From the IMG/VR virus record IMGVR_UViG_3300032087_006453, positions 1 through 64,000 of that record: a DNA stretch of 64,000 bases; one strand, 5' to 3'. Position numbers and translations under genes: made by a program. This DNA comes from a virus. The notes beneath the pieces are model-generated. The model saw nothing but the letters and a program-made list of their open reading frames with translations. It was not told where the DNA came from and did not search any database. This document shows positions 62 to 52,923 of this stretch, piece by piece (the first letter of the stretch is position 1; each line of letters begins with the position of its first letter).

Positions 62-109
62 CCTCCTTACAATGATATACTATCACATCACAGAAGAATC
101 TGCACTCAA
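62..109 (-). promoter_or_regulatory. Recurrent phage promoter cassette, copy 1
   Basis: On the minus strand it reads GTGCAG (-35-like), 17 bases, TAGTAT (-10), then TGTAAGGAGG just before the start codon. The same layout recurs upstream of at least twelve genes in the window. The transcript leader would be only about 20 bases. Confidence 0.65.
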
Positions 110-1028: not shown

Positions 1029-1048
1029 ATAATGTAGGTTGGCACACT

Positions 1049-2097: not shown

Positions 2098-2100
2098 GCA

Positions 2101-2135: not shown

Positions 2136-2149
2136 GATATCGGTAGTCT

Positions 2150-2402: not shown

Positions 2403-2420
2403 CATCTCTCCTGTCTTAAG

Positions 2421-2495: not shown

Positions 2496-2499
2496 AAAG

Positions 2500-2575: not shown

Positions 2576-2682
2576 ATAGTGTAGGGATTATGTTCTGAAC
2601 GCCAGAGACAGTGACCGGAGTGTGTCTCACTTAGGCTCTGTAGATGCCTCCTAGTAAACTCTACAATCTTGCAAGCGAATGT

Positions 2683-2964: not shown

Positions 2965-2965
2965 G

Positions 2966-3235: not shown

Positions 3236-3242
3236 TGTTTCC

Positions 3243-3518
3243 TCACGCAATCTTTGTTAGTGAACCTAGACGGACATCCCACGTCTGGTAATCATCTGCC
3301 TTAATCAAGGCATTGACTCGCTTGACCTTGGTGATGGTACCGGTGATCGTGCCGTGCCTGGATGGGAACGATACTCGATCGCCCTTTTTCAGGAGCTTCT
3401 TGTTCTCGGAACCCTTGACTTTCTTGCGGCGCTTGTGCTCATTTGCAACGCAGCGCCACAGGGTCATGATGTCTTCGTCTGACATCGTGCTAACCATTGC
3501 TTCGTAAACTTCTTTCAT
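3243..3518 (-). CDS. Small protein with KOW/SH3-like tail, unknown
   Basis: 91 residues. The first half is helical and ends in a strongly basic stretch (HKRRKKVKGSENKK). The second half (LLKKGDRVSFPSRHGTITGTITKV) has the G-D-x-V and G-T-I-T-G pattern of small SH3-like barrels such as KOW motifs, which often bind nucleic acid or ribosomes. Its ATG overlaps the stop of the preceding gene by 4 bases. Function not known. Confidence 0.6.
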   Translation of the reverse strand: MKEVYEAMVSTMSDEDIMTLWRCVANEHKRRKKVKGSENKKLLKKGDRVSFPSRHGTITGTITKVKRVNALIKADDYQTWDVRLGSLTKIA

Positions 3519-3739
3519 TGGTCAAACCCCAGGAACTCATCGTTGCGCATGCAGCTTTCGGCATCGGCTCGGTCATAAAACCAAAGCTTTGGAGTCCGGA
3601 AGGGCGACCGGCCGGGGCATCGAACCTCGACGCAGACCATCCAGCCCCGCTCTCCCGAGTCGGAGAAGGCCTCGACCAAGCAGAGCTCGTCGCCGAGGTC
3701 GTTCTTGCGACCGCTGTAGTTGACGTTGTTGTTTTTCAC
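3515..3739 (-). CDS. 74-residue protein, unknown
   Basis: GTG start at 3739, 7 bases after AAGGAGG, directly behind promoter cassette copy 2. Compact, mixed composition with two cysteines. Its position as first gene after a promoter, followed by coupled genes down to 2683, suggests a five-gene early operon. Confidence 0.6.
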   Translation of the reverse strand: MKNNNVNYSGRKNDLGDELCLVEAFSDSGERGWMVCVEVRCPGRSPFRTPKLWFYDRADAESCMRNDEFLGFDQ

Positions 3740-3745
3740 TCAGCA

Positions 3746-3792
3746 CCTCCTTACAATGATATAGTACCACAGTTTGGGGGAATCTGCACTCA
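3746..3792 (-). promoter_or_regulatory. Recurrent phage promoter cassette, copy 2
   Basis: GTGCAG, 17 bases ending in TGG, TACTAT, then TGTAAGGAGG. The TGG just before the -10 gives an extended -10 look. It begins 4 bases after the previous stop codon. Confidence 0.7.
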
Positions 3793-3796
3793 ACTC

Positions 3797-4027
3797 TTAC
3801 GGAACTCGGGTGAAATGAAACCAACAAGTCTGAACCTTTCCCTCGTGGAGGACATCTACAATCCTGCGTGGCCATGCGGCAGGAACTTTCTGGCCACGAG
3901 ATTTCCAACGCCTCACTTGGTCAATGTCTGCAGGGTTGGATCGAATCTCCAAAACGAGACCCTGAGCCCATCCTGGACCGCTTTCCGCAGACCTGAACTG
4001 CACGATGTCACCGGGCTTAATTCCCAC
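3797..4027 (-). CDS. 76-residue SH3-like protein, unknown
   Basis: GTG start at 4027 preceded by GGAGGAAGAAG; the 11-base overlap with the previous gene fits coupling. The opening MGIKPGDIVQFRS and later GLVLEIRS suggest a small beta barrel. A longer frame reaches 4186 but covers the upstream gene and has no ribosome site. The next promoter cassette begins just past its stop. Confidence 0.55.
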   Translation of the reverse strand: MGIKPGDIVQFRSAESGPGWAQGLVLEIRSNPADIDQVRRWKSRGQKVPAAWPRRIVDVLHEGKVQTCWFHFTRVP

Positions 4028-4484
4028 CTTCTTCCTCCACGACTTCCAGACTGTCGATGTCGATGAACCCTCGCCACCCTTTTCGGCCACGCTTTTTCTG
4101 GTTTTCAGTTGGGTCCATCTGCACTTCGTAGATCCAGTAACCACGAGCCTCACTGGCTCGACCGCCGAACACATCGTCTTCGTCAACGTGTTCCCAATCG
4201 CTAGGATGGTAGTAGTCGTCGGAACCCATGAACAACATCACGCTGGTTGACACAACGGTTCCGAGGCGTTCGCGGTTGGCTCTTGACTTGACCCTGGCGC
4301 CGACCGGAATGGCGGGCTGTGTTTCTCGCTTGATTCGCTCCACTTCAGCCTTTCGCAGATCCTCGAGCATCGTGTCCCAGACTTGGTGAACCTGTTCTAA
4401 TGCTCTAGCTCTCTCTGCGAAGAAGTGGTTATGGTTCATGATGTAGCCCTTGCTAACAAGGGACTTCTTGTCTAAGATGCTCAT
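4017..4484 (-). CDS. 155-residue protein, unknown
   Basis: Start at ATG 4484, 6 bases after GGAGG and directly behind promoter copy 3. A helical N-terminal third (EQVHQVWDTMLEDLRKAEVERIKRE) precedes a beta-rich part starting IPVGARVKSRANRERLGTVVS, again SH3-like, and an acidic tail EVVEEEGGN. Likely a soluble accessory protein; no enzyme motif. Confidence 0.6.
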   Translation of the reverse strand: MSILDKKSLVSKGYIMNHNHFFAERARALEQVHQVWDTMLEDLRKAEVERIKRETQPAIPVGARVKSRANRERLGTVVSTSVMLFMGSDDYYHPSDWEHVDEDDVFGGRASEARGYWIYEVQMDPTENQKKRGRKGWRGFIDIDSLEVVEEEGGN

Positions 4485-4489
4485 CAGCA

Positions 4490-4534
4490 CCTCCTTACAA
4501 ACAGATATTACCACAGTTTCAGGGTTTACACTCA
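4490..4534 (-). promoter_or_regulatory. Recurrent phage promoter cassette, copy 3
   Basis: GTGTAA, about 15 bases ending TGTGG, TAATAT, then TTTGTAAGGAGG. The TGA inside TTGAGTG is close to the previous gene's stop, as in other copies. Confidence 0.6.
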
Positions 4535-4771
4535 AGCCGCGGCTGTTTTCAGCGCCTCGATGAGCTCCATGACCTTGCGCCACTCCTTAGCCGCGCGCTC
4601 CTCACCCTCGTCGACCCGGTCCATCGCGCGAAGCCACTGCTTCGTTCCCGGCGTCCAGCGCTTGGCTTCCTTCCGCCACTCCTTGGTACCGTTGTTCCAG
4701 CTCTTGTGCCGGAACATCGCGTTCTCCAGGCGAGTCTTCAGGAGCGCCACCCGGTCAGTTGCATCAGCCAT
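4532..4771 (-). CDS. 79-residue helical protein, unknown
   Basis: ATG 4771 with AAGGAGG. Almost entirely helical and Trp/Lys-rich, with two similar blocks (NGTKEWRKEAKRW and PGTKQWLRAMDRV), suggesting an internal repeat of about 15 residues. Follows promoter copy 4. No known family; the Trp-Lys repeats could bind a host protein or nucleic acid. Confidence 0.6.
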   Translation of the reverse strand: MADATDRVALLKTRLENAMFRHKSWNNGTKEWRKEAKRWTPGTKQWLRAMDRVDEGEERAAKEWRKVMELIEALKTAAA

Positions 4772-4778
4772 ACTGCAT

Positions 4779-4826
4779 CCTCCTTACAATCAGATATTAC
4801 CACAGTTGCCTATTGACTTGCACTCA
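4779..4826 (-). promoter_or_regulatory. Recurrent phage promoter cassette, copy 4
   Basis: GTGCAA, about 18 bases ending TGTGG, TAATAT, then TGTAAGGAGG. Its GAGTG start overlaps the stop of the gene before. Confidence 0.65.
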
Positions 4827-5135
4827 GCTTCGGTTCTTGCTTGCCTGGCGCTCGCGCATCAGCCGATCGAACCTCTCCATCGAGGTTTCCGGGCGCTCAT
4901 TCTCCCAGACGAGCTTGCCTTCACCGGGAAGGGCGGTCGGGTTCGGCGTCACCCGGATCTCGGTGCGCTTGCCCATGCGCTGCGAGCCGAGTGCAGCTTC
5001 GATCGCGAACTCAAGGCTCGGCCATGTCGAGGTCAAGAGCTTGCCTCGCAAGTGGGGTGCGCTCTGGTCGATCGGTCGGTTTCGGCTGTCGAAGCAGGTG
5101 ATGTGGAAGAAGGTGGTGGGGTTTGCATGGGTCAT
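4824..5135 (-). CDS. 103-residue protein, unknown
   Basis: ATG 5135 after AAGGAGG and promoter copy 5. Mixed alpha/beta; the C-terminal 20 residues are a charged helix (MERFDRLMRERQASKNRS). The codon use is notably GC-richer than in neighbouring genes (4.5-5.1 kb as a whole), which may mark a recent acquisition. Confidence 0.6.
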   Translation of the reverse strand: MTHANPTTFFHITCFDSRNRPIDQSAPHLRGKLLTSTWPSLEFAIEAALGSQRMGKRTEIRVTPNPTALPGEGKLVWENERPETSMERFDRLMRERQASKNRS

Positions 5136-5142
5136 GTTGTTT

Positions 5143-5190
5143 CCTCCTTACAGTCAGATAATACAACAAAGGAGAATTTTCTGCACTCAG
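5143..5190 (-). promoter_or_regulatory. Recurrent phage promoter cassette, copy 5
   Basis: GTGCAG, 17 bases, TATTAT, then TGTAAGGAGG. Located between the orphan leader peptide (5197-5232) and the 4824-5135 gene. Confidence 0.68.
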
Positions 5191-5196
5191 TTTTAG

Positions 5197-5232
5197 CTAA
5201 ATTTTATGTAGCTGCTTCTTCGTGAGTTTCAT
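5197..5232 (-). CDS. Orphan capsid-targeting-like leader peptide
   Basis: An ATG overlapping the previous stop (ATGA) opens MKLTKKQLHKI and then stops. The 11 residues match the first residues of the MKITRKQLRRIISEA leader found at 16716-17009 and 27728-28180. It is either the remnant of a leader-bearing gene replaced by the promoter cassette and downstream gene, or a tiny expressed peptide. No ribosome site of its own is obvious. Confidence 0.4.
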   Translation of the reverse strand: MKLTKKQLHKI

Positions 5233-5744
5233 GACAAAGCCTTGTATAGCCTTTCCGCATGTTCATCGGTCCCATACTTTTCGACAAAATCAGCGACGCT
5301 CATTTTTTCAACTTTCGGTGAGGTGTTACGCCCGGTGTACTGTTCAAGAAACATGATCTGCTTCTCTGGATCGTACTTCAGCTCTTTAGCACAACCCAGT
5401 ACAATTTCTAAAATTGAATAAATGACGTAATCAGGCTGGTTAATCAAAGGTTCAATGAAGTTAAAATCCAACCCGTTTGAAACCCTGACATACCCTTTTC
5501 GCATTGCGACTTCATCGGCGTAGAGTCCAGAGAAGCCGGTATCATACCAGCCTTCGTCTTTACTACGTTCTTCTGCCCACTGAAGGTGCGTTTGACGGGG
5601 AGCCAAAATATTAATTTTGCCATTTCGTTCAATCCACGCCAAGGAATGAGTATACGGGCTGCAAGTTGCGTGATCCAATTCCTTGGACACTTCGTTAAGT
5701 GCGGTTCTAACAATGCGTCTAAGCTGGTTGGCGGTTACTATCAT
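5229..5744 (-). CDS. Leader-tagged protein, unknown
   Basis: 171 residues from ATG 5744. Residues 1-22 (MIVTANQLRRIVRTALNEVSKE) fit the shared leader: amphipathic helix, Leu-Arg-Arg-Ile core, then a possible cut after LNE. The rest has no recognised motif but is well-formed alpha/beta. By analogy with T4 internal proteins it may be packaged in the capsid. An ATATTTATT element precedes the start. Confidence 0.6.
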   Translation of the reverse strand: MIVTANQLRRIVRTALNEVSKELDHATCSPYTHSLAWIERNGKINILAPRQTHLQWAEERSKDEGWYDTGFSGLYADEVAMRKGYVRVSNGLDFNFIEPLINQPDYVIYSILEIVLGCAKELKYDPEKQIMFLEQYTGRNTSPKVEKMSVADFVEKYGTDEHAERLYKALS

Positions 5745-5759
5745 GCCAATAAATATGTG

Positions 5760-5849
5760 TCAGTGATCTCTAAACGTGCCATAGACGTGGCCTACGTGAA
5801 AGCTGATGAAGCACAGCGCTGCCGTGATTACAATTCCTCCAATAGTCAT
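5760..5849 (-). CDS. 29-residue membrane peptide
   Basis: ATG 5849 follows a strong AAAGGAGGT by 7 bases. Residues 2-17 (TIGGIVITAALCFISF) form one membrane segment; the tail is short and His-rich. Fills the space between two genes exactly. Function unknown. Confidence 0.5.
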   Translation of the reverse strand: MTIGGIVITAALCFISFHVGHVYGTFRDH

Positions 5850-5862
5850 GTTCTTACCTCCT

Positions 5863-5991
5863 TTACCCTGAAATAACCTTGATTAGCAAAAATCCGGCTG
5901 CCAAGACAATCATGCCAGAAACAATGCTGATGTCTCTTACAACTCTAGCGACAGCAAGTGCCAAAACTTTATCCCTATTGCTTTTCTTCAT
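5863..5991 (-). CDS. 42-residue single-pass membrane protein
   Basis: ATG 5991 follows GGAGAGCGAAGA and lies inside the end of thyX (17-base overlap). A basic N-terminus (MKKSNRDK) is followed by a long hydrophobic helix ending IVLAAGFLLIKVISG. A longer in-frame start at 6063 is inside thyX and has no ribosome site. Role unknown. Confidence 0.5.
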   Translation of the reverse strand: MKKSNRDKVLALAVARVVRDISIVSGMIVLAAGFLLIKVISG

Positions 5992-6790
5992 TCTTCGCTC
6001 TCCTATAAGCCCCAACCGCAACAGGCCATAGTCCTTCCGCAATCTCCAGACAAGCCTCGGCAACCTTTTGAATCTCCCATTGCGCCCCTTCGTGCGTGCG
6101 AAGGTCGACGAATTTCAGGAGATTTGATAGGTCGACTGTGCCATAGTACTCGGTGTAAAGGTTCTGTGGCAGAACACCGCGAGCTTGTTCGCGGCAAACG
6201 CCTGCTTCGATGAGACTATCATAGAGCTTCAAGCTTTTCGCATGCCAGTCTCCGATAACCTTGCTCGCATCTCCTCGATGACCGGAAGGTCCATAAGGAA
6301 CCTTAACTACTGGATTCACCAACTCGCCGGCGTTACTTGCCTGACGGTTGCTTTTGTGTTGTGTCCTAAAAGCCTGTGGCTCGTAGAACCTCAGATTCAC
6401 ATCTGTATACCTGCGAGAAATTTCATTATAGGACCAGGTCCTATGGCGATGATGCTGGCTGCGGACAAACAAAGGAACAGTAAACCTAAATGTAGCCAGA
6501 TTATGTTCAAAAGTAGAGGTGTGTCGATGTTCGACCAGGTACTTAATGAGTCTTTTGTCTTTTTCATCTAACGCCTCCTTATGCTTCCCAAAACTGACAC
6601 GAGCACTGTTGACGATAGTAAGATCGCTGCCCATCCACTCCACCAAATCAACTCTGCCAATTCCGTCTCCATAGATCTCAATGCTCCTCATAGAATCGTT
6701 TAAAAAACGCTCTGCTTTGGGCACCGTTGCCCTAATGTTTGGGTCCACAAACCACTCCCTTTTCGTCCTGTATGCGTCTGGATCGCTCAC
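5975..6790 (-). CDS. thyX: FAD-dependent thymidylate synthase ThyX
   Basis: 271 residues. Converts dUMP to dTMP using methylene-tetrahydrofolate, FAD and NADPH. The ThyX signature is present near residue 118 as HRHRTWSYNEISRRY, with RHR for FAD binding and the Ser/Arg for dUMP; ARVSFGK near 65 and EHNLATFRF near 97 are also typical. It is the probable dTMP source, which makes the second, ThyA-fold enzyme at 52001-52879 available for a different job. It is followed by a cysteine-synthase-like gene. Confidence 0.95.
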   Translation of the reverse strand: MSDPDAYRTKREWFVDPNIRATVPKAERFLNDSMRSIEIYGDGIGRVDLVEWMGSDLTIVNSARVSFGKHKEALDEKDKRLIKYLVEHRHTSTFEHNLATFRFTVPLFVRSQHHRHRTWSYNEISRRYTDVNLRFYEPQAFRTQHKSNRQASNAGELVNPVVKVPYGPSGHRGDASKVIGDWHAKSLKLYDSLIEAGVCREQARGVLPQNLYTEYYGTVDLSNLLKFVDLRTHEGAQWEIQKVAEACLEIAEGLWPVAVGAYRRAKNEEKQ

Positions 6791-6798
6791 TTAAACCC

Positions 6799-7677
6799 TC
6801 AAATGCAACTAAGATAACGCTCACCACGATCGCAAAGCATGGTGAAAATAACTCCATCAAATTCATTCTCGCTCGCCCACTTTTCGCAGGCTAACACGTT
6901 TGCACCAGAACTAATGCCAACCAGCATGCCCTTTTGCTTGATGAGTTCCCTGGCTCTCTGCTTTGCAGACTCAGTCGGTATCACAACTATTTCATCAACC
7001 TCTTCGAGATCAACAAGAAACTTGCTTCCGTCACCGATACCTTGGATACCGTGTAGCCCGGGTTCTCCGCCGCTCATCACTGGAGATTCTGCAGGCTCGA
7101 CTGCAATGATCTTTACATCCGGATAGTTCTCACGAAGTTTTGCTGCAACTCCCATGATTGTTCCACCTGTTCCCGTTCCGGATACGAATGCAGCAGGCTT
7201 CGTGTTCATCGACCTGCAAGCTTGGACAATCTCCTCTCCGGTGGTGTGGTAGTGGCACTCGATGTTCAGCGGGTTATTGAACTGATTCGTGTTGTACCAT
7301 CCATTCTCTTCCGCAAGTCGATCCCTTAGTGCAATTGCACCGTCAAAATCACCGGCATCGACCTCGATGAGCTCTGCGCCGAGGGTCGTCATCATCTGTT
7401 TTCGCTCTTCAGACATGTTGCAAGGCATGACAATCTTCATGTCATAACCTCTCTCTGCAGCAAGAAGAGCAAATGCAATCCCCGTGTTTCCTGATGTTGC
7501 CTCAACAAGAGTGTCGCCGGCCTTAATTTGACCAGCGTTCTCTGCAGCGTCGAGGATGTACTTTGCCAGACGATCCTTCACACTTCCAGAGGGACTGTAC
7601 GTTTCAAACTTTCCATAAATGCCTTCTTCAACTTTGAGAAGAGGCGTATTCCCCACGTGATCAGATGGTCTAGACAT
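6799..7677 (-). CDS. Cysteine synthase-like PLP enzyme (CysK/CysM family)
   Basis: 292 residues with start at ATG 7677 after GGAGCTGGA. Fold-type II PLP enzyme with the Schiff-base lysine in PSGSVKDR, the substrate loop EATSGNTG, the phosphate loop GTGTGGT and GISSGAN near the end, as in O-acetylserine or O-phosphoserine sulfhydrylases and cystathionine beta-synthase cores. All key residues are intact, so it should be active. It could supply cysteine during infection, or feed an amino acid derivative to a pathway such as the PLP-containing unit at 29.7-32.7 kb. Phage copies are uncommon. Exact substrate cannot be told from sequence. Confidence 0.9.
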   Translation of the reverse strand: MSRPSDHVGNTPLLKVEEGIYGKFETYSPSGSVKDRLAKYILDAAENAGQIKAGDTLVEATSGNTGIAFALLAAERGYDMKIVMPCNMSEERKQMMTTLGAELIEVDAGDFDGAIALRDRLAEENGWYNTNQFNNPLNIECHYHTTGEEIVQACRSMNTKPAAFVSGTGTGGTIMGVAAKLRENYPDVKIIAVEPAESPVMSGGEPGLHGIQGIGDGSKFLVDLEEVDEIVVIPTESAKQRARELIKQKGMLVGISSGANVLACEKWASENEFDGVIFTMLCDRGERYLSCI

Positions 7678-7736
7678 TCCAGCTCCGCTATGTATTTCAT
7701 TGTACGGCACAGCGCAGCCGCTTTACAGAACCTAAA

Positions 7737-8402
7737 TTACACTATGTTCGGAGAGATGTCCAGCAAGTCCCTGATGCTGTTGAAGTGAGCTCGTGCAATG
7801 TCCCACTGACCCTCTTCGGTCATGAGGTACTTTGCTTCGTCGAGGTTGACAAAGAAGCCGTTCTCGCTAAGAAGCGCTGGCATCGCTGTTTTCCGAAGCA
7901 CGTAGAAAGACTGATTCTCCACAACCTTGCGCGGCCTTAGTTCCGTGTTGCCGTACTCGGCGAGGAGGTTGTTGGCAATGTCTCCTGACAAACCGCTTGC
8001 CCTGTAAACGAACACAGACGCGCCTCTAACGTCGATCGAAGGTCCTCTGATGTCCATGCCAATTGCATTTGCGTGAATGGACACAAAGATCGTGCTACCG
8101 CTCTTGTTTTCTCTGTTTGCGTTTGCAACCCTTTGCGAAAGGGAGACATCCGCCTGCTCAAGGCTCACAGTGTCGATAGAGTCCACAACGTACCTACCAG
8201 AAACGCAGTCGTATGTCTCAACACCTGCTCTGACGAGAAGAGACATGAACTTGCTAGCGGTGCCTCGGTTGAAGACTCCCTCGTAAATCGAGAACTCTTC
8301 AGGCTCCGTGAAGTGGTACTGTTTAGAACCAGGAGTCTGGTACTCGCCATCAATCATACCGCCGTGACCGTAGTCGACGATAACCCTATCTACTGTTGCC
8401 AT
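7737..8402 (-). CDS. N-acetylmuramoyl-L-alanine amidase (Amidase_3)
   Basis: 221 residues, start taken at ATG 8402. Zinc ligands of the Amidase_3 fold are visible: His in VDYGHGG (residue 12), Glu in IYEGVFNRG, His in SIHANA near 115 and catalytic Glu in ALLSENGFF near 185. It cleaves the amide between MurNAc and the stem peptide, so it is the likely endolysin or a virion lysin. No signal peptide, so release from the cytoplasm would need a holin or another route. The longer open frame to 8486 runs into tRNA-Leu and is rejected. Confidence 0.9.
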   Translation of the reverse strand: MATVDRVIVDYGHGGMIDGEYQTPGSKQYHFTEPEEFSIYEGVFNRGTASKFMSLLVRAGVETYDCVSGRYVVDSIDTVSLEQADVSLSQRVANANRENKSGSTIFVSIHANAIGMDIRGPSIDVRGASVFVYRASGLSGDIANNLLAEYGNTELRPRKVVENQSFYVLRKTAMPALLSENGFFVNLDEAKYLMTEEGQWDIARAHFNSIRDLLDISPNIV

Positions 8403-8447
8403 TAAACCCATCCAGACACGTTGCAGTGTCGATTCAGGGTATAAATA

Positions 8448-8529
<82 letters not shown>

Positions 8530-8533
8530 TAAA

Positions 8534-8606
<73 letters not shown>

Positions 8607-8612
8607 AAGGTA

Positions 8613-8686
8613 TCGGGATAGCTGGATTCGAACCAACGACCCTCTGCTCCCAAAGCAGATGCGCTACCAGACTGCGCTATATCCCG
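8613..8686 (-). tRNA. tRNA-Pro(TGG)
   Basis: Acceptor CGGGATA/TATCCCG, anticodon loop TTTGGGA giving TGG, discriminator A, CCA not encoded. The last codons of the VWA lipoprotein gene overlap its first 10 bases. Confidence 0.95.
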
Positions 8687-10062
8687 TCAACACATTTTAA
8701 GTACTGATAGGTGATTTGTACAACGTCTTCTCCCGTTGGTGCGTTCGACCTATCAAAGATTATCCTGTTACCGGCAGTTCCGTCATACTCCCAATCGCTT
8801 GGCGGTGATATCATTCCGTTGATCGTAACCTCAATGAATGCAGGCTCAACTGGCGTCCTGCTCATCTCAAACTCAAGAACAGGGTTGTAACTAGACTCCG
8901 CTATCATTGTCAGGCTGTCGCCCCAAGAGCCGCAAATGTCGATGGAAGAACCCGGGTTTAGCTTTGAAAGTTCCACGTATCGAGGTGCGTAAAATGCGGA
9001 ACAATGGCGCTTTTCACCCGTATCTGGAATTAGAGGATCGATCGGGTCGATGACTGAGAAGATGGCAATGTTTTCGTGTCCGTAAAGTCCTTGGAACCAA
9101 TCGGAGTATTCTATCACAGATCTAGAATCGTCTCCGGGCTCGTCTGTTACAAACACGAGCGTTAGGAAACTGTCTTCCCTCAGCACGCCGGTATCCCATG
9201 AGAAAGCACCGAATGGACCAGCGCCACCGCCAGTAGCTTGGAAAGCCATTTCCATTCCTGTCTCATAGGGATTTCCAGAAGTTCCTGCAGTCAGCTGAGC
9301 CTGCAATTCGCCAACTATGTCAGGCGTTGCGGGAGTAACGATCGGTCCTCGAAGAGCAGCGGAATCTGTCGTGATGACTCCTATCTGGAAGTCTACGTCA
9401 GATCCCTCGAGAGCTCTTGCAAACTTAGTTACGTTTGCAGAAAGGTCCGCTTGTTCCTCTGCCATAGAGCAAGAGTTGTCAATCACAAACAGAACGTCAG
9501 CCTTGTAGCTTTCTTCCCCAAGATGTGTATCGATCTGCTCGGGATAGTCGTTGGCATAGAAATCCTGGTCTATCCATATGTAGGGATCGTTGATTGCGTT
9601 CGATCTAATGAACAGCCTTGCTCCGTCGTCCACACCGTTGTTCTCGATGTGCTTGTACTCTATGACAATCTCTTCGCCGGGATCCAGGATCGCTTCGGTT
9701 GGATGCGTAACAATAACGTCTGGTGCAGCCAAACCATTCCATTCGATCGAATCGATCACTAACGGCTGCTGACCCACAGAACGAATTGTAACCGTGGCAT
9801 CTACTTCGCACTCCCGATCAGTTGGACCGGTCTCTAGTCGCTCTGGGAAGACCCTGATTTTTGGAAATCCACCAACAGGTGGGTCATCATAAGGCGAACT
9901 GGGCGGAGTGATCCAACCACTGTCGTAGCACAAGCACGATGAGTCTTCGGTATCCACTATGCTTTGATGTGTGTCGATTCCTGCAATCTTTTCTCTGACG
10001 TGGAAATCGTTTTCAGAAGAGCAGGAGAAAATGGCTAGGATACAAAATACTAAGAAACGCAC
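8677..10062 (-). CDS. VWA-domain lipoprotein, predicted surface adhesin
   Basis: 461 residues. A lipoprotein signal (MRFLVFCILAIFSC) ends in a lipobox Cys at residue 14. Residues about 70-165 look like a beta-sandwich of the choice-of-anchor type (FPERLETG, LDPGEEIVIEY). A von Willebrand type A domain starts near 190 with the MIDAS motif FVIDNSCSM (DxSxS), followed by TTDSA and VTDEPGDDSR. Such proteins bind metal and ligands at the surface of Gram-negative, often predatory, bacteria. In a phage it might alter the infected cell surface, exclude other phages or mediate cell contact. The stop codon lies inside tRNA-Pro; it sits between two tRNA groups, as many acquired genes do. Confidence 0.85.
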   Translation of the reverse strand: MRFLVFCILAIFSCSSENDFHVREKIAGIDTHQSIVDTEDSSCLCYDSGWITPPSSPYDDPPVGGFPKIRVFPERLETGPTDRECEVDATVTIRSVGQQPLVIDSIEWNGLAAPDVIVTHPTEAILDPGEEIVIEYKHIENNGVDDGARLFIRSNAINDPYIWIDQDFYANDYPEQIDTHLGEESYKADVLFVIDNSCSMAEEQADLSANVTKFARALEGSDVDFQIGVITTDSAALRGPIVTPATPDIVGELQAQLTAGTSGNPYETGMEMAFQATGGGAGPFGAFSWDTGVLREDSFLTLVFVTDEPGDDSRSVIEYSDWFQGLYGHENIAIFSVIDPIDPLIPDTGEKRHCSAFYAPRYVELSKLNPGSSIDICGSWGDSLTMIAESSYNPVLEFEMSRTPVEPAFIEVTINGMISPPSDWEYDGTAGNRIIFDRSNAPTGEDVVQITYQYLKCVDGI

Positions 10063-10100
10063 TGACCACCCCTTTGTATAAGTAGACAGTGGAGAAGGGA

Positions 10101-10174
10101 AGCCGCCTGTCGGATTCGAACCGACGACCTGCTGATTACAAATCAGCTGCTCTGGCCAACTGAGCTAAGGCGGC
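10101..10174 (-). tRNA. tRNA-Thr(TGT)
   Basis: Acceptor GCCGCCT/AGGCGGC, anticodon loop TTTGTAA giving TGT, T-loop TTCGAAT, discriminator T, CCA not encoded. Confidence 0.94.
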
Positions 10175-10314
10175 AAATGGGGAGACGACGTAGCAGGATG
10201 ATAATCGGACGAGAAGGCGAGTAAGTTGCTTTCACCAACTCTCATGACCGACCGTAGGGCAACTAATCTACAGTCTTGGTTTTTTGTTTTGATTTCCTGC
10301 TTCCGTCGTCGACT

Positions 10315-10336
10315 CCTTCGTCCCGTCGGACGAAGG
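10315..10336 (-). other. Strong hairpin between tRNA-Arg and tRNA-Thr
   Basis: A perfect 9-bp inverted repeat (CCTTCGTCC/GGACGAAGG) with a 4-base loop, 13 bases downstream of tRNA-Arg. No T-run follows on either strand at once, so a processing stem for the tRNA precursor or an RNA stability element is more likely than a terminator. The rest of 10175-10349 shows no gene. Confidence 0.5.
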
Positions 10337-10349
10337 CCCCAAAGGGAAA

Positions 10350-10422
10350 CGAGAGATACTGGATTCGAACCAGTGACCTACGGCTTAGAAGGCCGGTGCT
10401 CTATCCACTGAGCTAATCTCCC
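10350..10422 (-). tRNA. tRNA-Arg(TCT)
   Basis: Acceptor GGGAGAT/ATCTCTC, anticodon loop CTTCTAA giving TCT, T-loop TTCGAAT, discriminator G, CCA not encoded. Confidence 0.95.
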
Positions 10423-10551
10423 AAAGTGTTGGTTACTCGGGCGCGTGAGATCCCTTTCACCTTGAGAAGCACGAGTCTCCTCACTAATACCCCACTCAGC
10501 TGAGGGCGGAATGATTACAGCAACAGCCCCATTCCGCTGCGGGCACCTGGG

Positions 10552-12242: not shown

Positions 12243-12271
12243 ATTGTAATTGAGACAGCCTTAGTTTACAT
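12243..12271 (-). promoter_or_regulatory. Recurrent-type promoter for the RNA ligase gene
   Basis: ATGTAA, 17 bases, TACAAT on the minus strand, 18 bases before the ligase start. The TAA in the -35 is the stop codon of the preceding small gene, the same economy as in the cassette copies. Confidence 0.6.
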
Positions 12272-12373
12272 CGAAAGAGCAAGAATCAAAAAGAGGTATA
12301 CCAGCGGTGCCATCAGAATCGCAAACACGGTATCCTTGATCTGATCGCTCTTGGTGTAGTGTTCGTTGTTCAT
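12266..12373 (-). CDS. 35-residue membrane protein
   Basis: ATG 12373 lies 5 bases after GGAGGAAAG and overlaps the previous stop by 4 bases. A charged N-terminal half (NNEHYTKSDQIKD) is followed by one membrane helix (VFAILMAPLVYLFLILALSM). Good ribosome site and coupling make it credible. Function unknown. Confidence 0.6.
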   Translation of the reverse strand: MNNEHYTKSDQIKDTVFAILMAPLVYLFLILALSM

Positions 12374-12675
12374 CGCTTTCCTCCTGCGCTGTTTCTCTTG
12401 ACCTGGCTCTTTACCTTTCGTGCCGTTTTTGCATCCGGCGGTTCTTCCTGAAGATTCCCGATGTCCGTGCTGTAAAGTGCTCCCTCGCTAAGGTCACACA
12501 GTGTGACCCACTGCTTGCCGGCTGCAGTCTTGCTGAAGTACATGAGAGTTCCCCAGCGCCACTGCCCGCCGTAGTCCTGGAACCACAGGCAGTCGTTCTT
12601 CTTGTACGGGGAATCCGGATGCTTTTCAGTCATGGTGTTGGTACCTGGAAGTGGCTTGGCCTTCTTGCGTTTCAC
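12370..12675 (-). CDS. 101-residue basic protein, unknown
   Basis: GTG start at 12675 after GGAGGCATA, overlapping the previous stop by one base. Lys-rich at both ends, with an SH3-like centre (YKKNDCLWFQDYGGQWRWGTLMYF). May bind nucleic acid. The longer frame to 12870 is the previous gene out of frame. Confidence 0.6.
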   Translation of the reverse strand: MKRKKAKPLPGTNTMTEKHPDSPYKKNDCLWFQDYGGQWRWGTLMYFSKTAAGKQWVTLCDLSEGALYSTDIGNLQEEPPDAKTARKVKSQVKRNSAGGKR

Positions 12676-12941
12676 TATGCCTCCGTGCTGTGAATGACTT
12701 TGAAGCTTCCCGAGTGGTAGTTGCCGCATCGATGAGTGTCGCCCTCGGGAGTTGTCAGCAGAACATCGACGTAAACATCGCCGCGACCGTTGGCGTTGTG
12801 CGCGCTGTTGAGGGTAGTCTGCCTGACCTCGAGAACGATGCCGGTGCAGCCTTCGGGAATGGGCTTCCATCCCCTCGACTCGTTAACGACCGGGTTGTTT
12901 CGAACGGCGTAAATGTTTTTGACGATGTCGCCAGCTTTCAT
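12675..12941 (-). CDS. 88-residue SH3-like protein, unknown
   Basis: ATG 12941 after AAGGAGG, directly behind promoter copy 6. MKAGDIVKNIYAVR and CTGIVLEVRQ are typical of small beta barrels. Ends HRCGNYHSGSFKVIHSTEA. First gene of a three-gene unit (12675, 12370, 12266). Confidence 0.6.
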   Translation of the reverse strand: MKAGDIVKNIYAVRNNPVVNESRGWKPIPEGCTGIVLEVRQTTLNSAHNANGRGDVYVDVLLTTPEGDTHRCGNYHSGSFKVIHSTEA

Positions 12942-12948
12942 GATGCAA

Positions 12949-12995
12949 CCTCCTTACATTTTCATCATACCACGTGTAGATGAAATCTGCACTCA
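12949..12995 (-). promoter_or_regulatory. Recurrent phage promoter cassette, copy 6
   Basis: GTGCAG, 17 bases ending GTGG, TATGAT, then TGTAAGGAGG. The TGA of TGAGTGCAG is the stop codon of the HD hydrolase gene upstream. Confidence 0.75.
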
Positions 12996-13499
12996 GATTG
13001 AGTAGTAGTCGTCAACTATTTTCTTGGCTCGAGCGTAGAGCGTAGGGTCACCCTCGGTTAGCACCTTGAGTAGTGCAGCCTTTTCCTTCATGTAGACCTT
13101 CGCAAACTTGGGATCGTGCTCAGTAATGCTCTTTGAGTTACTGATTAGATCTGCTAGCTTGACCGTCTTAGACTGAGGAAGAGCCTTCGCAGTGTGAATC
13201 AGGTCTAAGTGCTTGCGTGCCTTTCGATTGCCGTCGCTCGGAACGCTGACGTCCGTGAGGTCTGCAACAAGCTGGCGTACCTTGTATCCAAACTCATTCC
13301 AGATATCTGACAGTGTGACGTCGGTGTCTTCGACAACGTCATGCAACACGGCAGCCGCAAGCATCTCGGGGGTGTGAGGAACCGTCTTCACGATTTCCAT
13401 AACCTCCAGAGGGTGAACGATGTAAGGCTCACCAGTGTACTTTCTGGTCTGACCCTGATGAGCTTCGGTTGCGAACAGTATGGCACGTTGAACAAGCAT
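12993..13499 (-). CDS. MESH1/SpoT-like HD hydrolase
   Basis: 168 residues. HD-domain metal and substrate motifs of the RelA/SpoT hydrolase family are intact: TRKYTGEPYIVHPLEV near 19 (contains the first His), LHDVVEDT near 52 (HD and ED) and VKLADLISN near 113 (Asp). Length and lack of any synthetase or TGS part match the stand-alone MESH1 type, which removes the 3' pyrophosphate of ppGpp and also acts on NADPH in animals. In a phage it would keep the host from shutting down growth by the stringent response. Coupled to the 13499-13837 gene. Confidence 0.88.
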   Translation of the reverse strand: MLVQRAILFATEAHQGQTRKYTGEPYIVHPLEVMEIVKTVPHTPEMLAAAVLHDVVEDTDVTLSDIWNEFGYKVRQLVADLTDVSVPSDGNRKARKHLDLIHTAKALPQSKTVKLADLISNSKSITEHDPKFAKVYMKEKAALLKVLTEGDPTLYARAKKIVDDYYSI

Positions 13500-13837
13500 C
13501 AGATGTACATCATCGTTTCGCTGTTCGACGCTGCGGCTTCGGCAGCATCGAAGTTAATGTTTCGCCAGTGGAAAGTTGCGAACGGCATCCGCGTGGTCTT
13601 CTTCGAGAACTTGTGCTGGACGATGACGTTCTTCTTCGTGATCGACTTGATCGGACCGAAGTAGCTCAGGTTGAACGAGTCGTACTCAGCAAACTCGCCA
13701 ATCTTGAAGGTCCGTTCCTTGAGCACAGGAATTTCTAGTTTGCCATCGATGTCGTTGGAGACCAGTGTGATGGACTCGCCGGGTGTCACGACAGCCCAGG
13801 AAGTTTTGCTCAGGTTTACAGTGAATGACTTGGCCAT
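13499..13837 (-). CDS. 112-residue beta-rich protein, unknown
   Basis: ATG 13837 after AAGGAGG, directly behind promoter copy 7, overlapping the hydrolase start by one base. Alternating beta pattern (FTVNLSKTSWAVVTPGESITLV) and a C-terminal tail rich in Ala and Met. Its pairing with the alarmone hydrolase is constant only within this window, so a shared role is unproven. Confidence 0.6.
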   Translation of the reverse strand: MAKSFTVNLSKTSWAVVTPGESITLVSNDIDGKLEIPVLKERTFKIGEFAEYDSFNLSYFGPIKSITKKNVIVQHKFSKKTTRMPFATFHWRNINFDAAEAAASNSETMMYI

Positions 13838-13844
13838 GTTCTTT

Positions 13845-13892
13845 CCTCCTTACATTCTCATCATACCATGCTTGGAGGAAATCTGCACTCAG
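13845..13892 (-). promoter_or_regulatory. Recurrent phage promoter cassette, copy 7
   Basis: GTGCAG, 17 bases ending ATGG, TATGAT, then TGTAAGGAGG. Drives 13499-13837 and the HD hydrolase. Confidence 0.75.
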
Positions 13893-13908
13893 TTTTGTAT
13901 GGCGTATT

Positions 13909-14574
13909 TTACTTCTGCCAAATTCTTTTTATCTCGTCGGCTACACCTTGCAAGTATTCTGCAATCTTTTCACCATCATCCATTCCAGACACAGCTCTGC
14001 GAATGTCATAGATCTTTTCCATCGCTTCAGCATTCTTGTCGCTTGGAAGGTCAATCGTCATCTCTCCGGCCGACGTCGATGTGTTAAAAATTGCCTCAAG
14101 CGCGCGGATAGAATTAGGTCTTCTTAATTTCCCAGCGGTGTCAAAAGCAGTTTCTCTTTCAACCGGACCAAAAATTGTTAGTTTGAGTTGCCCACTATCC
14201 TCGCTAGCTGTGATGATTACTAGCGCAACTCTATCGGTCCCTGCTTCTTGAATCTTGTCAGCGGTCAATCCTTTTATATTGTCTTTCGCAACCAAGCTAT
14301 GCAGTTTATCTGTGCGACGTGAACCCTTAACGCCTATTCCGAGATCGTCAACTTCAACGTCCTTGAAAACAGTTGGGTCTTTACCTTTATTGGTGTTTAG
14401 TCCACCAACCAACAGAGCGACAATGTCTTCTCCCACTTTCCCATCGGTGGAAAAATTATTATCAGCCAACATGCGAGCGATCCGGAGCTTGGTCTCTTTG
14501 TCAGTATTCTTAATCAGGGATTTGGGATCAACCTGCTCGAGCAGCAATCTTTTAAGTGAATATCGCATGCTCAT
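13909..14574 (-). CDS. Leader-tagged protein, possible nuclease-like fold
   Basis: 221 residues. It begins MSMRYSLKRLLLEQVDPKS, a variant of the shared leader with a possible cut after LLLE. The middle (KDVEVDDLGIGVKGSRRTDKL) loosely resembles the D-x(n)-(D/E)-x-K core of PD-(D/E)XK nucleases, but the spacing is not convincing. The C-terminal third is helical. No firm family; candidate internal virion protein. Confidence 0.6.
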   Translation of the reverse strand: MSMRYSLKRLLLEQVDPKSLIKNTDKETKLRIARMLADNNFSTDGKVGEDIVALLVGGLNTNKGKDPTVFKDVEVDDLGIGVKGSRRTDKLHSLVAKDNIKGLTADKIQEAGTDRVALVIITASEDSGQLKLTIFGPVERETAFDTAGKLRRPNSIRALEAIFNTSTSAGEMTIDLPSDKNAEAMEKIYDIRRAVSGMDDGEKIAEYLQGVADEIKRIWQK

Positions 14575-14583
14575 AAGTATGTC

Positions 14584-14919
14584 TCACCCATGCGAACGAC
14601 AGAGCAGATCGGCCGCGGCAACGTTACCTCTCTCCAGAAGCGTTACGCGACCCCAGTGGTCTGCGGCGCTCTCGTTTTCGGTCTCGAGCTTGATGTGACC
14701 CATCTCGTGTGCAATGATTGCCGTGATGTGGTCGTCCGTGTACCCGTGCGTCTCTCGGATTCTTCCGTCGACAACGATGATCGGTGTCTCAACGTCTTCA
14801 CCCCAGAAGCAGTAACCGTGCCCTCGAGACTCGAGAAGATCGACGGCATCACCCGTATCTCCCTTCTCGATCTCGAACACAGTAATGCTATCGTCAAACT
14901 CACATGCGTAAGCTTTCAT
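14584..14919 (-). CDS. HEXXH zinc metallopeptidase-like protein
   Basis: 111 residues from ATG 14919, overlapping the HAD gene stop by 4 bases. It has IIAHEMGHIKLETENESAADHW: HExxH with a downstream Glu-Asp-rich helix (ESAAD) giving the third ligand, as in minimal gluzincin/IrrE-like peptidases. Too small for a secreted protease, so it is more likely an intracellular regulator-cleaving or maturation peptidase. Coupling to the HAD phosphatase suggests joint expression. Confidence 0.7.
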   Translation of the reverse strand: MKAYACEFDDSITVFEIEKGDTGDAVDLLESRGHGYCFWGEDVETPIIVVDGRIRETHGYTDDHITAIIAHEMGHIKLETENESAADHWGRVTLLERGNVAAADLLCRSHG

Positions 14920-15365
14920 ACCGCTGGATACCTCACTTCCAAATCGCTCCAAGGCTTGATGTCGCCAGTCTGAAACTCCACCTGCATTCCCTGTGTGCCG
15001 TCTGGAAGTGCGCTTAGCTCTTCTGTGTCATCATCGTAATGCACCGCAGATTCCAGTCGCTTAAGAACTCCGCGCTTCAGGTTTCCGTTCGTGAAGTAAA
15101 CCTGCTCAATGAACCGGTCCAGACCGTGGCTCCTCAGAAAGTGCTCAACGCCTGGGGTTATCATCCTCTCGTACTCATCGAATTCTGGAAGGCTTCTCTC
15201 ATGAGATTCTTTTCTGGATGTCACTACAAAAACGATGGCACCGTCTCTGTAGTGTTTCTTGAGAGCATTGATCGCTTCGGCGTTTGGGCCGGTGTATCTG
15301 ATACCGTAGTCCTCGTCTGGCTTGTACAGCGCAAGTGTGCTGTCAAAATCGAAGGTGATGACCAT
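14916..15365 (-). CDS. HAD-superfamily phosphatase
   Basis: 149 residues, start at ATG 15365 after GAGAGGAAAAC. Motif I DFDSTLALY (DxDxT) is at residue 5, motif II VVTSRK near 50, and motif IV VHYDDD near 108. This is a compact haloacid dehalogenase phosphatase with little or no cap, as in phage nucleotidase- or kinase-linked members. Possible substrates are nucleotide 5'- or RNA 3'-phosphates; the latter would pair with the RNA ligase, but this is a guess. Confidence 0.8.
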   Translation of the reverse strand: MVITFDFDSTLALYKPDEDYGIRYTGPNAEAINALKKHYRDGAIVFVVTSRKESHERSLPEFDEYERMITPGVEHFLRSHGLDRFIEQVYFTNGNLKRGVLKRLESAVHYDDDTEELSALPDGTQGMQVEFQTGDIKPWSDLEVRYPAV

Positions 15366-15399
15366 TGTTTTCCTCTCACATCCATATGGATAAGTATCC

Positions 15400-15771
15400 T
15401 CACAGCCGACCCTTGTGATTTGCATTGCCACGGTTCTCGGCAACCTTGCGGAACTTCAGTCCACCCATGTGAGTATTGCTACCAGAGAGATGGCAGCTCT
15501 TTCCCTTGTGGAATCCGGTGTTCGACTTCCATGCACGCTGGTACTTGTCTCTGTCCTCGTTGCTCTCGAAGGCCAGGATCGTGATGTTTGCCATCTTGCC
15601 GTCACCACCCTGAACTGCGAGGTAGCGAGGAGCACTATCATCACCTCCGCGTTCCCAGACGCAGTCAGCACACTCGTTTGCATACCCCTCTGCCTGACGC
15701 TTTTCCGGAGAGTCGAGATCGAAATCTTCGCCGCAGTGCTTACAAGTCTTGATTCGTGAGTAACCCATCAT
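15400..15771 (-). CDS. Zinc-ribbon protein, unknown
   Basis: 123 residues. Near the N-terminus CKHCGEDFDL and NECADCVW form a four-Cys zinc site; the remainder carries an HMGGLKFRKV segment and is Gly/Asn-rich. Two ATG codons lie side by side; the second has better spacing to GGAGG. Behind promoter copy 8. May bind nucleic acid. Confidence 0.65.
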   Translation of the reverse strand: MMGYSRIKTCKHCGEDFDLDSPEKRQAEGYANECADCVWERGGDDSAPRYLAVQGGDGKMANITILAFESNEDRDKYQRAWKSNTGFHKGKSCHLSGSNTHMGGLKFRKVAENRGNANHKGRL

Positions 15772-15772
15772 G

Positions 15773-15822
15773 CCTCCAAGTTTCTATACTGTTATACCAC
15801 ACATGAAAGGAAAACTACACCA
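15773..15822 (-). promoter_or_regulatory. Recurrent phage promoter cassette, copy 8
   Basis: GTGTAG, 18 bases ending TGTGG, TATAAC, and GGAGG 12 bases on. Lies at the 3' edge of the 15815-16213 gene. Confidence 0.55.
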
Positions 15823-16213
15823 ACCTCATTACAAGACTCTTCTTTTTTCTCTGGATTTTGACAGAGCCGTTTACCATGATCTCAACGGTCTTCGGAGTAA
15901 CGTTTACGACAACGCCTTGGATCACCTTGTCACCATCATACCTGGTTTTATCGACAAACATTACCATCTCGCCAGACTCAAAGTCTTCGTTCTGATCTTT
16001 GTGATCGATAACGGACTCGATGAAATCTGGTTCGACCTTCAAGCAGAAAGAAGAACTTGTAACCCACTTTGCGGGAGCAGTTCCAAAGCCTTGGTACATG
16101 GATTCGACTAGAACCTTTTCTCCATCAACCGACATGACTTTTGCAAAAGATGGCCTGCTAACACCAGACACGGCATCCTTGTTCATGACAACAACCAAAT
16201 CATTTATTTGCAT
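15815..16213 (-). CDS. 132-residue beta-rich protein, unknown
   Basis: ATG 16213 with GGAGGC ten bases upstream. MQINDLVVVMNKDAV, GEKVLVESMYQG and ESGEMVMFVDKTRYDG suggest two SH3-like barrels in tandem, larger than the related single-barrel proteins of this phage. Basic C-terminus (KIQRKKKSLVMRLV). Unknown role. Confidence 0.6.
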   Translation of the reverse strand: MQINDLVVVMNKDAVSGVSRPSFAKVMSVDGEKVLVESMYQGFGTAPAKWVTSSSFCLKVEPDFIESVIDHKDQNEDFESGEMVMFVDKTRYDGDKVIQGVVVNVTPKTVEIMVNGSVKIQRKKKSLVMRLV

Positions 16214-16230
16214 CTTTTTGCCTCCGGACT

Positions 16231-16259
16231 ATCATACAAAGCTTTTGTCTGATTTACAA
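16231..16259 (-). promoter_or_regulatory. Recurrent-type promoter for 15815-16213
   Basis: TTGTAA, 17 bases, TATGAT on the minus strand, 17 bases before the start codon with GGAGG between. A hybrid between the housekeeping TTGACA and the phage KTGYAR -35. Confidence 0.6.
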
Positions 16260-29647: not shown

Positions 29648-29695
29648 CCTCCAAGCATATTAGTATTATAGCATGCCAGCGCCGAATCTACACTA
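29648..29695 (-). promoter_or_regulatory. Recurrent phage promoter cassette, copy 9 (uvdE)
   Basis: GTGTAG, 17 bases ending TGC, TATAAT (29665-29670), then GGAGG. Has the best -10 of the set. Confidence 0.72.
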
Positions 29696-36826: not shown

Positions 36827-37099
36827 TCAATAAATATCACGAAGCATGGCAATCATGCTTTCCTGAAACCTTGGGTCTTTTGCAATCACCTTGGGGTCGT
36901 TGCCAAGCTCTTCAGAGAATGCGTCGCAAAGTGGCTGAGCGATCTTCTCTAGAGCCCTCAGACAAACATTCCTTGCAGTGGAATGATTCATCTTGTCCCC
37001 AGATTCCGTCATGCGCTCAGCAATTTCACGATACCCAATTCCGTCAGGAGCCTTTGAGCCGTATCCGTGATCAAACTTCTTTCCGTTAGGCATTCCCAT
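36827..37099 (-). CDS. Sigma region 4.2-like helix-turn-helix protein
   Basis: 90 residues from ATG 37099 after GAGGAACAAG, overlapping the end of the sigma gene by 14 bases in a different frame. GIGYREIAERM then MNHSTARNVCLRALEKIA matches the helix-turn-helix of sigma region 4.2 (L-E-E-I-G-x-x-x...R-x-R-x-x-x-x-x-A-L-x-K-L) that reads the -35 box. The upstream sigma gene ends just before this domain should begin. Either the sigma works as two polypeptides or a frameshift joins them. Its open frame extends upstream to 37174, leaving room for a shift. Confidence 0.65.
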   Translation of the reverse strand: MGMPNGKKFDHGYGSKAPDGIGYREIAERMTESGDKMNHSTARNVCLRALEKIAQPLCDAFSEELGNDPKVIAKDPRFQESMIAMLRDIY

Positions 37100-37817
37100 C
37101 TTGTTCCTCCAGATACTTTCGGTCACTTTCATCAGGTTCAATTCCGAAGCGCATGCGAAGCACTGCCTCTTCACGAGGAGACAAGCTTCGAAGTGCGTCT
37201 CGAATTATTGACTGCATCTTTGAATTGTCGATGGCATCGGATGGATCGATCATGTTCTCGTCGGGAATTACTTCGCCAAGCTTACGAGAACCCTCTTCAG
37301 ATCCAACCTCTGCATCCAAGGAAACAAATCCGTGATGCATAGAACGAACACGGCGAAGGAGCTTCACACTGACGTCCAGTGCATCCGCCAACTCCTCCGC
37401 CGTTGGAAGAATACCGAATTCTTCCTCGTACTCTTTCTCGTACTCGTTCGCTTTCCATGCAATCAACCGAAGGTGAGACGGAATCCTTACGTCGGTTTTG
37501 TGGTTTCCAATGTGCTTAAGCACAGCTTGACGAATCCACCAGCAGGCGTATGTTGAAAACTTGAAGCCCCTGGTATGATCGAAACGATCGACCGCTTTCA
37601 TCAAGCCAATGTTCGATTCCTGAATGAGGTCTTCAAAATCAGCACCACGATTCTGATACTTCTTGGCAATAGAAACCGCCAACCGAAGATTTGCTGAAAC
37701 CATCTGGTCTCGTGCTGACTTATCGCCTGCCTTAATCCTCTTAGCTAGTTCTACTTCCTCTTCCCTCGTCAGTAGTTTGTGACTGCCAACATTGCTGAAA
37801 TAAGAGGATAAACTCAT
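37086..37817 (-). CDS. RNA polymerase sigma factor (sigma70 family) lacking region 4.2
   Basis: 243 residues from ATG 37817, overlapping the previous stop by 4 bases. Region 1.2/2: LLTREEEVELAKRIKAGD, MVSANLRLAVSIAKKY, DLIQESNIGLMKAVDRFD and FSTYACWWIRQAVLKHI. Region 3: IPSHLRL and GILPTAEELADALDVS. Region 4.1: LRSLSPREEAVLRMRFGIEPDE, then the protein ends at EEQDGNA where the -35-binding helix-turn-helix would follow. That helix-turn-helix is found in the next gene. It probably directs polymerase to phage promoters. Confidence 0.9.
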   Translation of the reverse strand: MSLSSYFSNVGSHKLLTREEEVELAKRIKAGDKSARDQMVSANLRLAVSIAKKYQNRGADFEDLIQESNIGLMKAVDRFDHTRGFKFSTYACWWIRQAVLKHIGNHKTDVRIPSHLRLIAWKANEYEKEYEEEFGILPTAEELADALDVSVKLLRRVRSMHHGFVSLDAEVGSEEGSRKLGEVIPDENMIDPSDAIDNSKMQSIIRDALRSLSPREEAVLRMRFGIEPDESDRKYLEEQDGNA

Positions 37818-38050
37818 GCTGCTCCCTTTCTGTTTGAGATCCACTGTTGATGTGCCTTTCGTCGATTCTCGCGAATCTCAATCTCTCGATAGAGATAGCA
37901 AGCATTCAACTCCAGCTCATGACGAACCTTAGGATCCTTCGTGCGACCAATGACTCGGCGAATGCCACTGAGCATGTTGCGAAGAACACTCTCATCCATC
38001 ACAGCCAGGTCATATGTGTTGAGTGGCAAAGACTTGTTACGCAATTCCAA
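37814..38050 (-). CDS. 78-residue basic helical protein, unknown
   Basis: ATG at 38050. Helical, Arg-rich (MLSGIRRVIGRTKDPKVRHELEL). Coupled to the sigma gene by ATGA, so it may be an accessory to transcription. No family recognised. Confidence 0.6.
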   Translation of the reverse strand: MELRNKSLPLNTYDLAVMDESVLRNMLSGIRRVIGRTKDPKVRHELELNACYLYREIEIRENRRKAHQQWISNRKGAA

Positions 38051-38086: not shown

Positions 38087-38108
38087 AGTGAACGGCTGTC
38101 CGCTCACT
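38087..38108. terminator. Hairpin with T-run, possible terminator or attenuator
   Basis: AGTGAACGG/CCGCTCACT with a 4-base loop and one mismatch. TTTTTTA follows on the plus strand, TTTTG on the minus strand. On the minus strand it lies between promoter copy 10 and the sigma operon, so it may attenuate transcription. Confidence 0.45.
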
Positions 38109-38113: not shown

Positions 38114-38155
38114 ATTGTATCACAAGGATGTTGAATTTACACTCAGATTTCTGTT
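38114..38155 (-). promoter_or_regulatory. Recurrent phage promoter cassette, copy 10 (sigma operon)
   Basis: GTGTAA, 17 bases ending TGA, TACAAT. Lies between groEL and the sigma operon, overlapping the groEL stop. The phage sigma may control its own operon this way. Confidence 0.6.
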
Positions 38156-42078: not shown

Positions 42079-42107
42079 AGTATAACTGTCACGGACCCAG
42101 TTTACAA
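42079..42107 (-). promoter_or_regulatory. Recurrent-type promoter for the nuclease gene
   Basis: TTGTAA, 17 bases, TATACT, then GGAGG. The -35 lies immediately after the stop codon of 42108-42458. Confidence 0.6.
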
Positions 42108-52894: not shown

Positions 52895-52923
52895 ATTATA
52901 CGTTCGGCTTTTGGCTTTTACAT
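52895..52923 (-). promoter_or_regulatory. Recurrent-type promoter for the hydroxymethylase operon
   Basis: ATGTAA, 17 bases, TATAAT, then AAAGGAAG before the ATG. The -35 contains the TAA stop of the polymerase gene. Confidence 0.6.

Follow-up and report, generated by a model that had tools for sequence, protein, structure and literature searches.

Which protein reads the -35 element of a promoter class that recurs on one strand of a phage genome with an ordinary -10 box and an unusual -35? The question is raised by a 64,000-nucleotide stretch of DNA (the window) from the start of a virus record of 70,003 bases (IMG/VR record IMGVR_UViG_3300032087_006453). A preliminary description of the window had listed 14 such sites and expected a dedicated -35 reader, naming a split sigma factor first and a MotA-like switch second. 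Comparison with related phages favoured the split sigma: all 56 relatives collected with the small downstream protein carried a sigma gene divided between regions 4.1 and 4.2, and a promoter of the class stands before the sigma operon of the window. A sigma factor made of two polypeptides is likely to read GTGYAAA/TATAAT and to activate its own operon.

The promoter class in this genome and across the clade

All 14 listed sites were present on the minus strand, their original coordinates marking the end of the -10 box or of the ribosome site. Twelve of them matched [GAT]TGYAR, a spacer of 15-18 bp and TANNAT. The other two were weaker candidates with atypical -10 boxes, recognised by sequence and missed by the matrix described below (15791..15820, GTGTAG-18-TATAAC; 42079..42107, TTGTAA-17-TATACT; both minus strand). 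A weight matrix trained without this genome and without its closest relative produced 17 sites of at least 11 bits in the 70-kb genome, all on the minus (coding) strand, compared to 1.5 expected on both strands of simulated sequence. This full-genome search, which the preliminary description had proposed, recovered 12 of the 14 sites among the 17. Matrix sites 36182, 30914 and 22751, situated within genes, are probably chance matches. An unbiased dyad test, in which every hexamer was scored at 22 spacings (8-29) upstream of TA..AT, gave as top dyads in this genome TGTAAA at 16 bp (6 compared to 0.07 expected), TGAGTG at 20 bp and GTGCAG at 17 bp (5 compared to 0.06 expected). A scan for consensus sigma-70 promoters in the first 20 kb showed no excess (15 found, 15.3 expected from shuffles).

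Relatives were collected from IMG/VR with the sigma protein (14 loci) and with the small protein encoded downstream of it (56 loci). In the clade set for the dyad test (54 contigs, 1.66 Mb), TGTAAA was found 39 times at 16 bp from TATAAT (0.63 expected), while GTGTAA and GTGCAA were found at 17 bp 33 times (0.32 expected) and 26 times (0.39 expected), respectively. The clade logo was GTGYAAA, 16 bp and TATAAT, with an extended TGN at many -10 boxes; 7 nt downstream of the -10 box purines prevail, which fits a start site. The spacing was rigid; in an enlarged set (55 contigs, 2.22 Mb) GTGYAA stood at 17 bp from TATAAT 70 times, at 16 bp 7 times, at 18 bp 6 times and at other distances 0-4 times, and TTGACA stood at 17 bp only once. 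These 70 sites were spread over 39 contigs and 56 were left once similar flanks were removed. Taken singly, relatives G004, G005+7+8, G006, G009 and G010 had GTGCAA, CGTGTA or TGTAAA on top in the same register; for G001, G002, G003 and G012, each alone, the motif was not the top dyad in the all-hexamer test. The promoter family is real and reaches well beyond this phage. The unusual -35 predicted earlier was confirmed, with GTGYAAA in place of TTGACA throughout the clade; its first formulation as KTGYAR is better written GTGYAAA, the clade consensus, with GTGCAG as a variant of this genome.

Two control sets were analysed, 80 marine T4-like contigs (719 kb) with the same script, collected with the single-stranded DNA-binding protein of Pelagibacter phage HTVC008M, and 43 contigs close to T4 (T4-like enteric) with the same test. 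At 17 bp the marine set had 42 occurrences of TTGACA and none of GTGYAA. In the enteric set the best partner of TATAAT was ATGCTT at 15 bp, which is the MotA box, whilst two cases of GTGYAA at 17 bp occurred. A profile search for the split sigma showed 0 of 80 and 0 of 43 control contigs compared to 56 of 56 family members. The method thus detects different upstream elements where these differ, and GTGYAAA accompanies the split sigma. The carrier phages had 27 to 57% G+C and their contigs measured 12 to 293 kb, so that several hosts are probable. One subclade (G017, G038 and G039; L163, L090 and L096) had CCCGTGYRA as -35, mostly at 16 bp and not 17, and offers a natural variant for probing -35 specificity.

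A sigma factor split within region 4

The sigma operon lies on the minus strand and begins with a 78-amino-acid (aa) open reading frame (ORF) known from the ORF listing (37814..38050), for which no Pfam match was found. The next ORF (37086..37844) encodes a sigma-70 factor which, by Pfam and RpoD alignment, has regions 1.2-2-3-4.1 only. Pfam Sigma70_r2 was matched with E 2.3e-23, and r1_2 and r3 were also above cut-off; the best RpoD/SigA alignments had E < 1e-50. The ORF aligned to RpoD over 37-237, ending at RFGI (residue 568 of the E. coli chain, for example), and its true start is perhaps the ATG at 37817, which overlaps the stop of the upstream ORF. The RpoD homology extends through the -10-reading region, in agreement with the -10 box having been called ordinary. 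The chain of the window ends soon after ...LSPREEAVLRMRFGI, and in both the window and the relatives it ends soon after RFGI with no region 4.2 in the same chain.

The third ORF (36827..37099, minus strand) encodes a 90-aa region-4.2-like protein (R4.2 protein), the proposed -35 reader, with its own ATG and a Shine-Dalgarno sequence GGAGG. This ORF shares 14 nt with the sigma ORF but is read in a different frame, and the protein contains YREIAERM...MNHSTARNVCLRALEKIA. Judged by these alignments, the sigma is split exactly between regions 4.1 and 4.2 into two adjacent ORFs with separate starts, each with part of the sigma regions, as in a two-subunit sigma. The truncated sigma gene preceded the gene of the small R4.2 protein in 56 of 56 relatives, where the downstream product was a helix-turn-helix protein of 90-100 aa with its own ribosome site in a variable frame. 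Across the 48 junctions measured, the gap from sigma stop to R4.2 start was -23 to +38 nt and the relative frame was 0, 1 or 2. A programmed frameshift joining both ORFs was ruled out because frame and gap vary across loci and a separate ribosome site serves the second ORF. Both halves were found in 8 of 8 relatives with a related DnaB on contigs of at least 64 kb, and neither in 13 shorter fragments. The R4.2 protein had no match in named phages (INPHARED) or GTDB genomes at the sensitivity used.

The promoter of the sigma operon (38114..38142, minus strand, GTGTAA-17-TACAAT) was the top site of the genome with 22.6 bits, and its -35 abuts the stop codon of a GroEL gene. In a scan of 50 loci with a threshold of 14 bits, the best matrix match upstream of the sigma gene reached the threshold in 45 loci and on the opposite strand in one; the count of 45 is somewhat optimistic because the matrix was trained partly on these loci. 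Some loci had variants upstream of the sigma gene: the jumbo phages L085 and L108 carried TGTAAAA with a shift of 2 bp, L086 and L099 GTGAAA (score still above 14), and L090 and L096 CGTGCGG with 16 bp; L115 had neither such a promoter nor a variant there. An extended -10 occurred in 16 of 43 sigma-operon promoters and in 27 of 62 others, so that the former showed no excess. A hairpin AGTGAGCGG-acag-CCGTTCACT (38087..38108, minus strand, -12.9 kcal/mol) was found where the sigma-operon transcript is predicted to begin, and it is also present in the closest relative. Sigma-operon leaders were folded more stably than those at other promoters of the class (mean z -1.05 compared to -0.20, p 0.001), and the hairpin was missing in approximately half of the loci. 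A leader hairpin was also seen at L067, L068, L073, L074, L101 and L102, and its sequence varies between phages.

Proposed reading of the -35 element and its alternatives

The results suggest that a split-off piece of sigma re-aims RNA polymerase at viral genes. We infer that the larger polypeptide (piece A, regions 1.2 to 4.1) would bind host core RNA polymerase and open the ordinary TATAAT -10, and that the R4.2 protein (piece B) would dock on region 4.1 of piece A and rebuild sigma region 4. The TARN recognition helix of piece B, placed in the -35 position, would read GTGYAAA directly, with the 17-bp spacer from GTGYAA to the -10 box. During infection the two-piece holoenzyme would transcribe the phage genes including its own operon, a positive loop, and would leave the TTGACA promoters of the host behind. 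As consensus host-type promoters are nearly absent, the first sigma may come from the virion, the host may use these promoters weakly, or host-type promoters may be too weak to see. More tentatively, and with rather less likelihood, piece A alone may serve extended -10 promoters while the level of R4.2 protein times the -35-dependent viral promoters, which would make piece B an exchangeable subunit and the system a two-step switch within one sigma.

Structure prediction supports the folding of both pieces together as sigma region 4. The AlphaFold2 model of the R4.2 protein was a helix-turn-helix with a predicted local distance difference test score (pLDDT) above 90 over residues 21-80. A joined chain was modelled from 13 relatives with both ORFs in one frame, the intervening TAA being treated as a residue. 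Along both pieces it matched known structures of sigma region 4, including that of sigma-E on -35 DNA (2h27) with Z 8.8 and a root mean square deviation (rmsd) of 1.4 over 69 residues, and that of Taq sigma-A on -35 DNA (1ku7) with Z 7.3 and rmsd 2.0 over 66 residues. In a by-eye helix alignment, the phages had H (or I, V, L), S (or A) and N where E. coli has R584, E585 and Q589, and T-A-R-N of the recognition helix was invariant in 50 aligned R4.2 proteins. In a subclade (L070, L073, L074, L082, L089 and L118) ISIS/VSVS-TARN replaces MNHSTARN and the Y of GTGYAA is mainly C (27 C, 4 T), an association confounded by high G+C.

Several observations weigh against a two-piece sigma reading GTGYAAA. 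Pfam Sigma70_r4_2 was the family most often matched by the R4.2 protein, and this weakly, in 8 of 50 members with a best value of 3.5e-4; the 90-aa protein of the window itself had no match to it. The R4.2 model alone had no match with E < 1 among PDB folds, and R4.2 profile searches of the PDB retrieved no sigma. The joined model is a read-through chain from 13 sequences with a mean pLDDT of 71 and an unreliable linker (below 50), and its structural matches, with Z of 7-9, are modest. Recognition-helix residues and -35 letters did not clearly covary, the test of the -35 Y (C or T) against the recognition-helix residue being confounded by G+C content. The closest relative, G001, carries few sites. 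The linkage of motif and sigma is partly one of shared ancestry, and both could be co-inherited without one reading the other. Finally, the -35 comparison covered phage sequences, and the host may have a -35 preference of its own.

Three other explanations were considered. A MotA-like activator, either free piece B or another protein, might bind GTGYAAA and recruit a holoenzyme, of host or phage, whose own region 4 is displaced. Piece B is indeed a separate small helix-turn-helix protein with weak region 4.2 homology and no fold match alone. However, a rigid spacer of 17 bp puts the element in the register of a sigma -35, whereas the T4 box ATGCTT was recovered at another register, 15 bp, in the T4 set, which makes such an activator less likely; moreover, the phage sigma lacks its own region 4.2 and the next gene provides a helix-turn-helix at every locus. 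The MotA-like switch offered earlier as the second option thus fits less well, and is considered unlikely. The ordinary sigma of the host could also use these promoters if its -35 preference were unlike TTGACA, with the phage sigma doing something else. The extended TGN at many -10 boxes, which host holoenzyme could use alone, would allow this; yet the motif occurs in phages of probably several hosts, always with the split sigma, while marine T4-like phages use TTGACA, and this explanation is very improbable. Least credible of all is that the sites are an intergenic cassette, repeated or mobile (TGAGTGCAG...TGTAAGGAGG), which recombination has spread and whose likeness to a promoter is incidental. 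Seven sites of this genome do have most of a 48-nt unit in common, in which TGA precedes the -35 and TGTAAGGAGG follows the -10, but elsewhere the -35 and -10 alone are conserved, the flanks differ, and 56 of the 70 sites have dissimilar flanks.

Sites and genes of the window and comparison with known systems

The remaining promoters are all on the minus strand. GTGCAG with a 17-bp spacer was found at 77..105 (TAGTAT, 16.7 bits), 3761..3789 (TACTAT, 17.5 bits), 5158..5186 (TATTAT, 16.8 bits), 12964..12992 (TATGAT, 18.6 bits) and 13860..13888 (TATGAT, 19.1 bits). Other sites were GTGTAA-15-TAATAT (4505..4531, 13.5 bits), GTGCAA-18-TAATAT (4794..4823, 13.7 bits), TTGTAA-17-TATGAT (16231..16259, 19.4 bits), GTGTAG-17-TATAAT (29665..29693, 21.5 bits), ATGTAA-17-TATAAT (52895..52923, 18.4 bits) and ATGTAA-17-TACAAT (12243..12271, 12.4 bits and sequence). 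The fusion of stop codons to the -35, already noticed in the preliminary description, held at 8 of the 14 sites. The stop codon of the upstream gene lay within the -35 at 12271 (TAA of a 35-codon ORF), 15820 and 52923 (DNA polymerase gene), and abutted it at 4531, 4823, 12992, 38142 and 42107. At 105, 5186 and 13888 GTGCAG likewise follows a TGA, although this is not the upstream stop codon there, so that the repeated unit of this genome is TGAGTGCAGATT.

Directly upstream of the sigma operon is the GroEL-type chaperonin gene (Cpn60_TCP1, E 1.2e-70; 38143-39741, minus strand). Nine tRNA genes (Leu x2, Gln, Glu, Ile, Asn, Pro, Thr and Arg; 124-10423, minus strand) lie in the first 10.5 kb amid five promoter sites, and positions 33906-35273 contain a tRNA nucleotidyltransferase-like gene. 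The gene at 52918-56574 (minus strand) encodes a DNA polymerase III alpha subunit of bacterial type with a PHP domain, which has less than 30% identity to named phages in the best matches.

Region 4 ordinarily belongs firmly to the chain of a sigma factor, and TTGACA is among the most conserved bacterial promoter words. T4 late promoters have no -35, and the sigmas of phages 7-11 and phiEco32 are single-chain. Precedents exist for two-subunit sigmas, for phage sigmas that have promoters of their own and for the replacement of region 4 by AsiA/MotA. SigO-RsoA of Bacillus subtilis is likewise one sigma of two polypeptides dividing the promoter-reading regions, with the division between regions 2/3 and 4 (PMC10141391); in the phages described here the chain is cut within region 4 (4.1 | 4.2) and the large piece resembles RpoD. 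T4 gp33 and gp55, which replace sigma-70 (PMC11598898), form the late sigma of that phage, likewise in two proteins, whereas the present class has a strict -35 and its large piece retains regions 1.2, 3 and 4.1. In the T4 AsiA/MotA system the host sigma is remodelled and MotA reads a box near -30 (PMC11598898), so that a small phage protein takes over the -35 reading of region 4, as proposed here; in contrast, the present phages supply their own sigma without region 4.2 and the element is at -35. Phages 7-11 and phiEco32 have a phage sigma with its own promoter class, established via genome comparison (PMC4331800). The open-access literature and the databases searched contained no sigma divided within region 4 and none that combines this with a clade-wide new -35, and the same literature contained no paper on a GTGCAA phage -35.

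A large clade of uncultivated phages thus appears to have cut sigma within region 4 and changed the -35 word. The promoter signature can be used to annotate dozens of uncultivated genomes, and the clade offers a natural system for studying how region 4 sets -35 specificity, how a two-part sigma works and how these phages seize transcription.

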